Shown here: positions 7,306 to 44,749 of the stretch, piece by piece
Position numbering within the stretch: position 1 is the stretch's first letter
Layout of the letters: each line of letters opens with the position of its first letter
Assembly (NCBI GenBank): GCA_026398695.1
Contig: JAPLSJ010000089.1
Location: 1 to 64,000 of the forward strand
Direction: 5' to 3'
DNA from: Arenimonas sp.
GTDB taxonomy: Bacteria > Pseudomonadota > Gammaproteobacteria > Xanthomonadales > Xanthomonadaceae
Length of the DNA stretch: 64,000 nt
Translations under genes and position numbers: made by a program
Notes under the pieces: generated by a model
The model's input: the letters and a program-made list of their open reading frames with translations, nothing else
Told to the model about the DNA's origin: nothing
Databases searched by the model: none

Positions 7306-7376
7306 CCTTGTGGGAGGGACTTCAGTCCCGATCGCCCCCTCGCCAAGAGCATCGGGACTGAAGTCCCTCCCACAGG
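7306..7376. repeat. Palindromic intergenic element, family A, copy 1
   Basis: Perfect 23-base inverted arms (7310-7332 and 7351-7373) of the form GTGGGAGGGACTTCAGTCCC plus GAT, separated by 18 bases. The same sequence recurs at 24863-24930 and 38583-38645. This copy lies 8 bp beyond the stop codon of the LAB_N gene. No T-run follows it, so it does not look like a classic terminator. The remaining DNA from 7082 to 7385 holds only the rpmB leader and promoter. Confidence 0.9.
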
Positions 7377-8444: not shown

Positions 8445-9353
8445 TCAGTTCCCGCGCAGGCGCTCGAGGATGCCGTCGAGCGTGTCCAGGCCGTGGTAGC
8501 TGATGACCAGCTTGCCGCGGCCGCCGCGGCCGTGCTGCACGGCCACCTTGGCGCTCAGCTTTTCCGACAGCTCGCGCTCAAGCGCGGCGATGTCGGCGTC
8601 CACCTTCTTGCCGTTGGGCTTGGCCGCGGCCTTGCCCGGGATCTGGCCCTTGCCGAGCATCTGCGCGCGGCGCTCCACTTCGCGCACCGACCAGCCCTCG
8701 GCCACGGCTTCGCGCGCCAGCTGCAGCGCGGCCGCGGGGGCCAGCGTGAGCAGGGCGCGGGCATGGCCCATTTCCAGCGCTTTTTCTTCCAGCAGCTTGC
8801 GGATGCCGTCAGGCAGCTCGAGCAGGCGCAGCAGGTTCGACACCGCGGCGCGCGAGCGGCCCACGGCCTCGGCGGCCTGCTGGTGGGTGAGCGAGAACTC
8901 GTCGATCAGGCGGCTGAGCGCCTGCGCTTCTTCAAGCGGGTTGAGGTCTTCGCGCTGGATGTTCTCGATCAGCGCCATGGCGATGACGGCGCGGTCGTCC
9001 ACCTCGCGCAGCACCACCGGCACGTCGGTCAGGCCGGCCTGGGTGGCGGCGCGCCAGAGGCGTTCGCCGGCGATGATTTCGTAGCGCGGCTGGCCGTCCT
9101 TGCCGGTGCCGATCTCGCGCACAACGATCGGCTGGATCAGGCCCTGGGCCTTGATGGATTCGGCCAGCTCGGTGAGCTTGGCCGGGTCCATGCCAGTACG
9201 CGGCTGGTACTTGCCCGGCTGCATGGCCTGGATCGGCAGGAAGCGCAGGCCTTCGGCCGACTCCTGCGATTCCGCGACCGGCGCCGCGCCCTTGTTGCCC
9301 GTGCCCAGCAGGGCCTCCAGGCCGCGGCCCAGGCCGCGTTTCTTGGTGCTCAT
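8445..9353 (-). CDS. parB: Chromosome partitioning protein ParB
   Basis: A 302-residue ParB/Spo0J protein that binds parS sites, loads as a CTP-dependent clamp and organises the origin region. The N-terminus is basic (KKRGLGRGLEALLG), the CTP-binding domain contains PGKYQPRTGMDPAKLTELA and the box usually written GERRWRA, here GERLWRA because the codon is CTC. ENIQREDLNPLEEAQA and the helix-turn-helix LTHQQAAEAVGRSRAAVSNL follow, then a C-terminal dimerisation part. The start shares ATGA with the parA stop. I saw no obvious parS palindrome nearby. Confidence 0.95.
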   Translation of the reverse strand: MSTKKRGLGRGLEALLGTGNKGAAPVAESQESAEGLRFLPIQAMQPGKYQPRTGMDPAKLTELAESIKAQGLIQPIVVREIGTGKDGQPRYEIIAGERLWRAATQAGLTDVPVVLREVDDRAVIAMALIENIQREDLNPLEEAQALSRLIDEFSLTHQQAAEAVGRSRAAVSNLLRLLELPDGIRKLLEEKALEMGHARALLTLAPAAALQLAREAVAEGWSVREVERRAQMLGKGQIPGKAAAKPNGKKVDADIAALERELSEKLSAKVAVQHGRGGRGKLVISYHGLDTLDGILERLRGN

Positions 9354-38579: not shown

Positions 38580-38648
38580 CTTGTGGGAGGGACTTCAGTC
38601 CCGACGCTCTTGGGCGAAAAGCATCGGGACTGAAGTCCCTCCCACAGG
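38580..38648. repeat. Palindromic intergenic element, family A, copy 3
   Basis: Arms of 25 bases at 38583-38607 and 38621-38645 with one mismatch, of the GTGGGAGGGACTTCAGTCCC type, separated by 13 bases. Lies between yqhA and uvrD. Confidence 0.9.
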
Positions 38649-38677: not shown

Positions 38678-40855
38678 ATGGATGTCTCCCACCTTTTGGA
38701 CGAACTCAACCCGGCCCAGCGCGAAGTGGTTTCCGCGCCGCCGGGCCATGCCCTGGTGCTGGCCGGCGCCGGCTCGGGCAAGACCCGCGTGCTCACCCAC
38801 CGCATCGGCTGGCTGCATGAAGTGGTGGGCGTGCCGGCGCACGGCATCCTGGCCGTCACCTTCACCAACAAGGCCGCCGCCGAGATGCGCGGCCGGGTCG
38901 AGGCGCTGCTGCGCAACGGCGCGCGCGGCATGTGGATCGGCACCTTCCACGGCCTGGCGCACCGCCTGCTGCGCCTGCACTGGCAGGAGGCCGGCCTGCC
39001 CGAGTCCTTCCAGGTGCTCGACCAGGACGACCAGGTGCGCCTGCTCAAGCGCATCAGCGCCGACCTCGAACTCGACGAAGGCCGCTTCCCGCCGCGCCAG
39101 ATGGCCTGGTGGATCAACGCGCAGAAGGACGAGGGCCGGCGCCCGAAGCACATCCAGCCGTCCCCGGGCGACCTGTTCGGCTCCACCATGCTCAAGGTCT
39201 ACGAGGCCTACCAGGCGCGCTGCCAGCGCGCCGGCCTGGTGGACTTCGCCGAGCTGCTGTTGCGCGCACACGAGCTGTGGCTCGAGCACCCCGTGCTGCT
39301 GCACCACTACCAGCAGCGCTTCCGCCACCTGCTGGTGGACGAGTTCCAGGACACCAACGCCATCCAGTACGCCTTCGTGCGCGTGCTGGCCGGCGACACC
39401 GGCGAAGTGTTCGTGGTGGGCGACGACGACCAGGCCATCTACGGCTGGCGCGGCGCCAAAGTCGAAAACGTGCAGCGTTTCCTGAAGGACTACCCCGGCG
39501 CGCGCACGCTCAAGCTCGAGCAGAACTAACGCTCCACCGGCAACATCCTGGCCGCCGCCAACGCGGTGATCACCCACAATCCCGACCGCCTGGGCAAGCA
39601 GCTGTGGACCGCCGACGGCGAGGGCGAACCCATCGACCTGTTCGCCGCCTACAACGAAGTGGACGAAGCCCGCTTCGTGGTGGACCGCGTGCAGGCCTGG
39701 ATCCGCGACGGCGGCAGCGCCGGCGACAACGCCGTGCTGTACCGGTCCAACGCCCAGTCGCGCGCCATCGAAGAGCAGCTGGTGCAGGCCGGCCTGCCGT
39801 ACCGCGTGTACGGCGGCCAGCGCTTCTTCGAGCGCATGGAAATCAAGGACGCGCTGGCCTACCTGCGCCTGCTCACCAACCGCGCCGACGACGCCGCCTT
39901 CGAGCGCGCGGTGAACACGCCGCCGCGCGGCATCGGCGGCAAGACGCTCGACGAGGTGCGCCGCCACGCCCGCGACCGCGCCGTGCCGCTGTGGGACGCC
40001 GCCGTGGCGCTGTCCCAGGGCAGCGAGCTGCCGGGCCGCGCCCGCAACGCCCTGCGCGCCTTCGCCGACCTGGTGGACGCGCTGCAGGCCGGCACCGCCG
40101 AGTCGCCGCTGCACGAACAGTTCGACCACGTCATCGCCAACTCCGGCCTGCGCGCGCACTACGCCGCCGAGTCCAAGGGCCAGCTTGATTCACGCACCGA
40201 GAACCTGGACGAACTGGTGTCGGTGGCCAGCCGCTTCGAGCGCCGCGACGACGAGGCCAGCGCCGAGATGACCGAGCTGGTGGCCTTCCTCAGCTACGCC
40301 TCGCTGGAGGCCGGCGAAGGCCAGGCCGAGGCCGGCGAGGACGGCGTGCAGCTGATGACCCTGCACAGCGCCAAGGGCCTGGAGTTCCCGCAGGTGTTCC
40401 TGGTGGGGCTGGAGGAAGGTCTGTTCCCCAGCGCCAAGTCGGTGGACGAATCGGGCCGTCTCGAGGAAGAGCGCCGCCTGGCCTACGTCGGCCTGACCCG
40501 CGCGCGCCAGAAGCTGGTGCTCACCTACGCCGAGACGCGCCGCCTGCACGGCATGGAGATGTACGGCACGCCGTCGCGCTTCCTGCGCGAAATCCCGCCG
40601 GCCCTGGTGCGCGACGTGCGGCCCAAGGTCAGCGCCAGCCGCCCGTCCTACGGCCCGCCGCGCTCGGCGGCCCTGGTGAACACCGGCGGCGGCCCCTCGC
40701 TGCGCCTGGGCCAGCGCGTCATGCACCCCAGCTTCGGCGAGGGCGTGGTGATGGACGCCGAGGGCAGCGGCGCCCACGCCCGCATCCAGGTCAACTTCGA
40801 GAAGGGCGGCGCCAAGTGGCTGGTCCTGGGCTACGCCAACCTCCAGCCCCTCTGA
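38678..40855 (+). pseudogene. uvrD: DNA helicase II (UvrD) with an in-frame stop codon in motif IV
   Basis: The frame aligns end to end with UvrD (MDVSHLLDELNPAQREVV, LAGAGSGKTRVLTHRI, WIGTFHGLAHRLLR, LVDEFQDTN, VGDDDQAIYGWRGA) for 283 codons, then reads LEQN followed by TAA at 39527-39529 where UvrD has the tyrosine of QNYRS. Right after it the same frame continues RSTGNILAAANAVITHNP and runs without another fault to 40855, including TLHSAKGLEFPQVFLVG, RRLAYVGLTRARQKL and the Tudor-like C-terminus. A single base change (TAC/TAT to TAA) explains it. If real, full-length helicase II for mismatch and excision repair is not made unless read through or restarted at the ATG at 39566. A sequencing error is possible. 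Confidence 0.9.
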
Positions 40856-43016: not shown

Positions 43017-43442
43017 TCAGCCCAGGTGCGCGTCGGGCCGGTAGCGCTCCGTGAAGCGCTCCGGCCGGGTGATCGGCTGGAAGTCGTACTTCGCATACAG
43101 GCCGTGCGCGTCGCTGGTGGCCAGCAGGAAGCGGCGAAGGCCCTGCAGTTCGGGGTGCCCGAGGATGGCCGCCATGATCGCCTGCGAAATGCCCTGCCCC
43201 CGATACGCCGGCAGCACGAACACGTCGGCCAGGTAGCCGAAGGTGGCGTGGTCGGTGACCACGCGCGCGAAGCCCACCTGCGCGCCGTCGAGCAGCGCGC
43301 TGAAGCACAGCGAATGGCGCGCCGCGCGCTCCACGCGCTCGCGGCCGATGCCGCGGCACCAGTAAGCCTCGTGGCACAGGAAGCCGTGCACCACGTCCAG
43401 ATCCACGTCGGCGAAATCCGTGCTGATGCGCAGCTCAGCCAT
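43017..43442 (-). CDS. GNAT family N-acetyltransferase
   Basis: A 141-residue single GNAT domain. The acetyl-CoA loop reads VLPAYRGQGISQAIMAAIL, and the N-terminal EAYWCRGIGRERVERAARHS and C-terminal ATSDAHGLYAKYDF are typical of small stand-alone acetyltransferases. Substrate is unknown. The ATG at 43442 overlaps the original end of dctM (TATGGCTGA), so it is coupled to that transporter operon. Confidence 0.9.
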   Translation of the reverse strand: MAELRISTDFADVDLDVVHGFLCHEAYWCRGIGRERVERAARHSLCFSALLDGAQVGFARVVTDHATFGYLADVFVLPAYRGQGISQAIMAAILGHPELQGLRRFLLATSDAHGLYAKYDFQPITRPERFTERYRPDAHLG

Positions 43443-44749
43443 ACAGCCATTCCGGCAGGCCGGTGGCCAGCACCGGGAACGCGGCCACCAGCGCCAGCAT
43501 CACCAGCTGCAGGGCGATGACGGGCACCACCGAAGGGCGGCGTCAGGAACGAGGTCTGCAGGTTGATCGCCATCATCACGCCCAGCCACACCGGGTCCAC
43601 GCCCAGCGCCAGCAGCACGGGCCCGACGATCGGCACCACGACGAAGATGATCTCGATGAAGTCGATCACGAAGCCCAGCAGGAACATCAGCAGCATCACC
43701 GCCACCACCGCGCCCCACTTGCCGCCCGGCAACGACGTCAGCACCTCGTGCACCAGTTCGTCGCCGCCGTAGCCGCGGAACACCAGTGAGAACATCGCCG
43801 CGCCCAGCAGGATGGCGAACACCATCGCCGTCACCTTCACCGTCTCCGCGCCGACTTCCAGCAGGCGCTTGAGCCCCAGCCGCCCGTGGAGCGCGGCGAA
43901 TGCGGTGGCGCCCACCGCGCCCACCGCCGCGGCTTCGCTGGCGGTGGCGATGCCGGCCAGGATCGAACCCAGCACCAGCCCGATCAGCGCCAGCGCCGGC
44001 GCGATGGCCTTGGCGAGGTCGGCGGCCGAGCGGGGCTTGAGGTCGCGCAGTGCCGGCGCGCGCTCCGGCTGGCGCCAGGCCACCCACAGCACATAGGCCA
44101 GGTACAGCCCCACCAGCCCGAGGCCCGGCAGCAGCGCGCCGGCGAACAGGTCGCTCACCGACACCGACTCGGGCGCGAAGATGCCCTGCTTGAGCTGCGA
44201 CTGCTGGTAGGCATTGCCCAGCTGGTCGCCCAGCAGCACCAGCACGAGGGAAGGCGGGATCACCTGGCCCAGCGTGCCCGAAGCGCAGATGGCGCCCGAG
44301 GCCAGGCGCGGGCAGTAGCCGTTGCGCAGCATGGTGGGCAGCGAAATCAGGCCCATCGCCACCACCGTGGCGCCGACGATGCCGGTGGACGCGGCCAGCA
44401 ATGCGCCCACCAGCAGCACCGCCACCACCAGGCCGCCGCGTTTGCGCCCGAACAGCGACGCCACGGCTTCAAGCAGCGATTCGGCGATGCGCGAGCGCTC
44501 CAGCATGATGCCCATGAACACGAACAGCGGCACCGCCACCAGCGTCTCGTTGGTCATCACGCCGAACATGCGGTTCGGGAACGCCTCCAGGAAGCTGGCG
44601 TCGAAGTTGCCCAGCGCCATGCCCAGGCCCGCCACCAGCAGCGACACGCCGCCCAGCACGAAGGCCACCGGGAAGCCGCTGGCCAGGCCCGCCAGCAGGC
44701 CCAGCAGCAGCAACACGAGCATGAGAATGTGCTGGTCGTGCAGGCTCAT
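43435..44749 (-). pseudogene. TRAP transporter large permease DctM with a frameshifting deletion near the 3' end
   Basis: The frame from ATG at 44749 gives a normal DctM large permease for about 406 residues (GFPVAFVLGG, ETLVAVPLFVFMGIMLERS, STGIVGATVVAMGLISLP, PPSLVLVLLGDQ, then NLQTSFLTPPFG). At about 43530 the usual continuation FALFYLRGVAP to IYRG is absent and the sequence jumps, one base out of frame, to VVPVIALQLVMLALVAAFPV and a proper end at 43435. About 20-25 codons (length of the form 3n+2) are missing. The shifted frame would continue into the next genes. If real, the transporter is inactive; an assembly collapse is the alternative. Confidence 0.82.

Follow-up and report, generated by a model that had tools for sequence, protein, structure and literature searches.

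A lone in-frame TAA in uvrD of an Arenimonas draft genome: wrong consensus base or recent nonsense mutation

In this work we analysed a stretch of 64,000 nucleotides from Arenimonas sp. (the window), part of a contig of 66,053 bases (C44), and found that its uvrD gene (DNA helicase II) is interrupted by one in-frame TAA, which is unique to the window among the relatives examined. We consider it slightly better than even, at a probability of about 0.55, that this TAA is a single wrong consensus base of the draft assembly, arising from a read error, a damaged template or a minority read, and that uvrD in the living cells probably specifies an ordinary protein of full length; the cause of the stop would then be technical and not biological. 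In that case a repair-deficient or mutator label given from the draft alone would be wrong, and the assembly deserves a flag for base-level errors.

The uvrD frame and its internal stop codon

The uvrD frame occupies positions 38678-40855 of the + strand (725 codons and the natural TGA) and translates as a single UvrD frame, whose sole internal stop, between LEQN and RSTGN, is the TAA of codon 284 at 39527-39529 (+), flanked by CTCGAGCAGAAC on the 5' side and CGCTCCACC on the 3' side; neither a second internal stop nor a frameshift was found in the translation of 38678-40855. The open part before the stop (38678-39526, +, 283 codons) matches residues 1-282 of E. coli UvrD and the open part after it (39530-40852, +, 441 codons) corresponds to UvrD residues 284 onward, which places the stop at E. 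coli residue 283 (chain 2is1_A). Two NCBIfam models stay in register across the stop with one position missing, PRK11773 over 1-282 and 284-718, and TIGR01075 over 1-277 and 279-714. The gene, frame and codon given in the earlier note are confirmed by this translation and by these models. The same note had counted 442 further codons free of defects: there is indeed no other defect, but the sense codons number 441 and are followed by the natural stop. Both parts score higher on TIGR01075 (472.4 and 639.6 bits) than on TIGR01073 and TIGR01074, which puts UvrD nearer to them than either PcrA or Rep, and from its sequence we assign the gene to uvrD. Neither score reaches the equivalog cut-off of 1144.45 and, because the frame is split by the TAA, the encoded product misses the full-length TIGR01075 criterion unless the TAA is an error. 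The whole frame otherwise matches E. coli UvrD (PDB 2is1, 3lfu), TIGR01075 and PRK11773, the last as far as position 718 of 720, the difference from the E. coli protein being the single stop that falls on residue 283. The N-terminal part presumably holds helicase motifs I-III and would be an inactive fragment, while the tyrosine expected at the stop position is one that we take to belong to motif IV and to pack on the ATP base. In the yeast relative Srs2, PMC10709652 names a tyrosine among the possible contacts to DNA; it shares its number with Tyr283 of E. coli UvrD, and the two may or may not correspond in position. Literature searches on PcrA Tyr286, on oxidation artefacts and on assembly-error stops in metagenome-assembled genomes gave nothing usable.

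Relatives agree on the codon that the TAA replaces. Codon 284 could be aligned in 112 of 114 loci, the other two (L003 and L004) being other regions of the window's own genome; it reads TAC in 84, TAT in 26 and TAA in 2, and both TAA rows (L002 and L005) are the window itself. The 110 tyrosine rows consist of 109 relatives' loci, in which some species are perhaps represented repeatedly, and of the genome's own Rep paralogue (L001), as had been expected of every UvrD or Rep helicase. As TAC and TAT are each one base away from TAA, a single base change does explain the stop. Twenty-four further genomes are given as the same genus, and the comparison at 39527-39529, which had been proposed as a check, shows the TAA in none of the 109 relatives' loci. 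None of the other 110 alignments over codon 284 contains a stop codon (that of L013, from G003, a genome with shifted frames, covers residues 12-377 only), and accordingly no relative has a uvrD frame split by a stop. In 166 near-invariant columns drawn from 110 UvrD sequences, the window deviates in one only, the stop codon. The closest uvrD DNA among the other genomes is that of G002 (93% identical), so that the species is represented there by no second genome. The closest UvrD from a named species is that of Arenimonas metalli CF5-1, with 97% identity over the first 283 residues and 93% overall, which makes the organism an Arenimonas-like member of the Lysobacteraceae.

The draft genome amounts to 2,759,423 bases in 137 contigs and is 89.12% complete. 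It contains four regions of the UvrD-helicase family: the window uvrD, rep on contig C106, which is open and carries the motif LEQNYRC, and two regions on C82. The search for another uvrD copy, also called for earlier, thus found none in this incomplete assembly, and a Rep paralogue with an open frame.

Age of the stop and fate of the product

Selection downstream of the stop bears on its age. The changes private to the window in codons 285-725 are 8 synonymous and 1 nonsynonymous, compared with 3 and 2 in codons 1-283; the private uvrD changes of G002 are 8 and 0 after the stop position, and 6 and 4 before it. Codon differences between the window and G002 are 62 synonymous and 26 nonsynonymous after the stop, and 32 and 15 before. 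Neither the private changes nor the differences from G002 show a sign of relaxed selection downstream of the TAA, which indicates that the stop either is very recent or is absent from the cells. An old pseudogene was rejected on the same 8 to 1 ratio and on the intact remainder of the frame, and the earlier view that the loss would be recent, if real, agrees with that ratio.

A real allele would mean that the sampled strain acquired a nonsense mutation very recently, which ends translation after 283 residues and leaves the strain devoid of helicase II; the truncated product would presumably lack motifs IV-VI and domain 2A. UvrD provides the helicase activity in both nucleotide-excision and mismatch repair, and E. 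coli survives losing uvrD by itself; with a real TAA, repair deficiency and a raised mutation rate would be expected. We hold such an allele possible, at odds below even. It is in keeping with the clean sequence on either side of the TAA in a 66-kb contig, with the open rep gene, and with private changes downstream of the TAA that are nearly all synonymous (8 to 1), the pattern that a very young allele would show. Furthermore, Pseudomonas aeruginosa strains with mutS, mutL or uvrD defects are known (PMC3676378); a real allele would be one more of this kind known in natural mutators and would resemble these strains in having a broken repair gene in a genome otherwise intact. Its main difficulties come from the rest of the assembly, which is considered below, and from the window itself where, besides a 68-bp deletion, no frameshift was found in the genes covered by the comparison with G002 and G004.

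The earlier note also allowed for restart at an ATG at 39566, or for readthrough of the TAA; the proposed restart codon reads GTG, a valine codon of the uvrD frame (39566-39568, +), and readthrough is without support. An open frame of 429 codons does start at this GTG, and could yield a C-terminal fragment acting alone or with the N-terminal one, but the start would be GTG, no purine-rich ribosome-binding site is visible by eye upstream of 39566, and a split uvrD frame occurs in none of the other 110 alignments (with the same restriction for L013). As this fragment would, we presume, be devoid of motifs I and II (the Walker motifs), restart seems to us hardly credible. Decoding of the TAA as an amino acid, whether by readthrough, by a suppressor tRNA or under an altered genetic code, would give a full-length UvrD, and would fit the position of the TAA exactly at a tyrosine codon as well as the mostly synonymous private changes downstream. 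Against it, TAA is the terminator of 5 of the 29 window genes with a readable stop, and hence functions as a stop; the stop in mutS described below lies at a glutamate position; and none of the 30 tRNA genes found in the assembly has a stop-reading anticodon. A tRNA-Tyr gene was not found among these 30 in the 89.12% complete draft, which leaves room for a suppressor form of that tRNA, but on the usage of TAA and on the anticodons we consider a suppressor or a change of the genetic code very improbable. Readthrough and restart are poor candidates even when taken jointly.

Lone stops in the assembly and the mutational spectrum

The case for a consensus error was weighed with a scan for stops that have coding signal on both sides in the same frame, covering 865,949 bases of the window's own genome (window included), 480,000 of G002 and 454,618 of G004; the contigs were picked by number or for another match there, not randomly, and the window was picked for its stop. 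The scan recovered 1739 of 2280 artificial stops, and most of its candidates (31 in the own genome, 10 in G002 and 9 in G004) looked by eye like ordinary gene boundaries. The 31 were judged to be 6 internal stops (a leuB-like one included), 1 phyH remnant and 24 gene boundaries, and the same judgement left 1 internal stop in G002 and 0 in G004. The phyH-like candidate (L241:10792) was discarded as an old remnant, its upstream frame containing more stops and not being coding-like. By our judgement, the internal stops of the own genome lie in uvrD, mutS, gshA, a ChrR-like cupin gene and a BaxI-like gene, the leuB-like case being less sure.

The mutS gene carries one in-frame TAA (L177:12378 and L216, contig C99, + strand), identified by the family search. 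This stop is present once in the own genome and, among the matches listed, within none of the other 24 matching genomes; of these, G005 matches only through a short terminal piece and G003 through three pieces that differ in frame, and 1 further genome has no match. The position is glutamate in the nearest eight relatives. One or two stops also appear in the mutS alignments of L212, L209, L210, L223 and L220, where the query overruns the gene upstream; as the family search finds no stop within the mutS matches of these loci, those in the alignments were not counted. The gshA gene (glutamate-cysteine ligase) carries one in-frame TAG (L242:2055, contig C12, - strand), seen once in the own genome and in 0 of 13 others with a full-length match. 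In the cupin and the BaxI-like genes one Pfam domain spans the stop. The leuB-like stop (L271:136) is doubtful as an internal stop: it falls at one end of a 4,552-base contig, perhaps a foreign one, and an open leuB is present on C121. In G002, the internal stop is in an MFS transporter gene (L195:12794, +), where TAA stands against a tyrosine codon (TAC) in G004, a change of the same kind as in uvrD. The genomes thus have 5 (own, window included), 1 (G002) and 0 (G004) internal stops. The excess in the own genome is suggestive but not significant: 5 versus 1 gives p = 0.09, and 6 versus 1, with the leuB-like stop, p = 0.05, while leaving out the window gives p = 0.14 for 4 versus 1 and p = 0.08 for 5 versus 1. 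The ABC-transporter family, with 45, 46 and 48 matches in the three genomes, has a stop in none among the matches listed, which is too little sequence to add to this comparison.

The lone stops in other conserved genes of this fragmentary draft, mutS included, make a consensus error at least as likely as the loss of helicase II; they weigh against a real allele, and the lack of full-length helicase II, which the earlier note had made conditional on a real TAA, is not established. Separate, fresh and clean natural hits in both uvrD and mutS seem unlikely, which also favours an error. Several observations argue against an error: the excess of stops is weak, the contig is long, G002 itself has one such stop, and private amino-acid changes are not raised in the window (75 in 7,862 columns, compared with 110 in G002, 107 in G023, 113 in G003 and 98 in G004). 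This last point is tempered by the expected numbers since the five stops, if all were random substitutions, would correspond to about 3.5 substitutions per 10,000 bases, or about 22 in the window (a coding share of 88% being assumed), too few to show in the private amino-acid count.

Judged from the relatives' codons, the uvrD and mutS stops belong to the G:C>T:A class; in mutS the codon is GAA, one step from TAA, in 5 of the 8 nearest relatives, and GAG in G002 and two others. From the expected residues, the gshA, cupin and leuB-like stops would also be G:C>T:A, and the BaxI-like one G>A. Codon usage predicts that 47% of random stop-making substitutions are C>A, so the class alone does not tell error from mutation. 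Among nonsynonymous changes, C>A is more frequent in the window (16 of 43, counting the stop) than in three relatives taken together (20 of 150; p = 0.0014). The sister G002 resembles the window (20 of 66), so that this may be the real spectrum of the clade, and it also counts against an error. In the window 8 of 43 changes (again counting the stop) are radical (BLOSUM62 <= -2), and in four relatives together 19 of 216 (p = 0.095).

The spectrum of private single-base synonymous changes likewise argues against a real allele and against the mutator state that the earlier note had attached to uvrD loss: C>T accounts for 92 of 251 in the window, versus 202 of 372 in G002, 88 of 207 in G023, 282 of 497 in G003 and 154 of 358 in G004, and the excess of transitions typical of mismatch-repair deficiency is thus not seen in the window. 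A mismatch-repair defect may possibly be too young to have left a trace. Changes are 97.5% transitions and 1.3% GC>TA in mismatch-repair-deficient P. fluorescens (PMC4316635), and 92% transitions in a P. aeruginosa mutS strain (PMC3676378). The stops of the window's genome are, unlike these, mostly G:C>T:A, and a mismatch-repair defect is therefore unlikely to be their origin. The mutL, mutY and fpg genes are open in the own genome, and a mutY or mutM defect as the source of the G:C>T:A changes was rejected, both genes being open. A broken nth was also rejected: a TAA lies within the match to the MutY model, but the match to nth's own model is stop-free and ends before the MutY-model match does, and the TAA is hence taken as the natural end of nth.

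A real uvrD TAA would, together with the mutS stop, make the strain a natural double mutant in mismatch repair. A strain that has newly lost mismatch repair twice, with gshA and further genes also freshly interrupted, would be a newborn hypermutator of unchanged spectrum, which we regard as improbable. The P. fluorescens ATCC948 defect, a 41-bp insertion in mutS, was checked by Sanger sequencing and by mutation rate, as PMC4316635 reports, whereas the window TAA is known from draft sequence alone.

Other features of the window

Where G002 or G004 has a counterpart of the window, a comparison of reading frames leaves two genes as disrupted, uvrD and dctM. This comparison, which also raised flags against G003, G021, G023 and A. 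metalli, is noisy; the flags followed up include five frames, the region at 6.6-7.1 kb and dctM, and the other apparent stops among them came from frames that are too long or antisense, one of which runs into parB. The TRAP-transporter gene dctM (43438-44749, - strand, Pfam DctM) lacks 68 bp at 43530 compared with the two relatives aligned there, which shifts the frame near the gene end; the alignments of all six relatives break at 43530, and several private changes lie just past the junction. The gap may be either a real deletion or a local misassembly.

At 6.6-7.1 kb there is no Rfam match, and an open L28-like ribosomal frame lies on the minus strand. In ParB (8454-9338, - strand), codon 94 is leucine (IAGERLWRA), while IAGERRWRA, with the second arginine of GERR at this position, is read in four relatives and in the best match among solved ParB structures; this Arg to Leu replacement comes from a G>T substitution within a conserved motif, on the same contig as uvrD, and we counted it for a consensus error. 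Finally, GGGACTTCAGTCCC followed by GGGACTGAAGTCCC occurs at 38589-38639, upstream of uvrD, and again at 7316-7367. Frames through the stretch before rep on C106 resemble this GGGACTTCAGTCCC/GGGACTGAAGTCCC stretch, and the repeat is perhaps a dispersed REP-like element.
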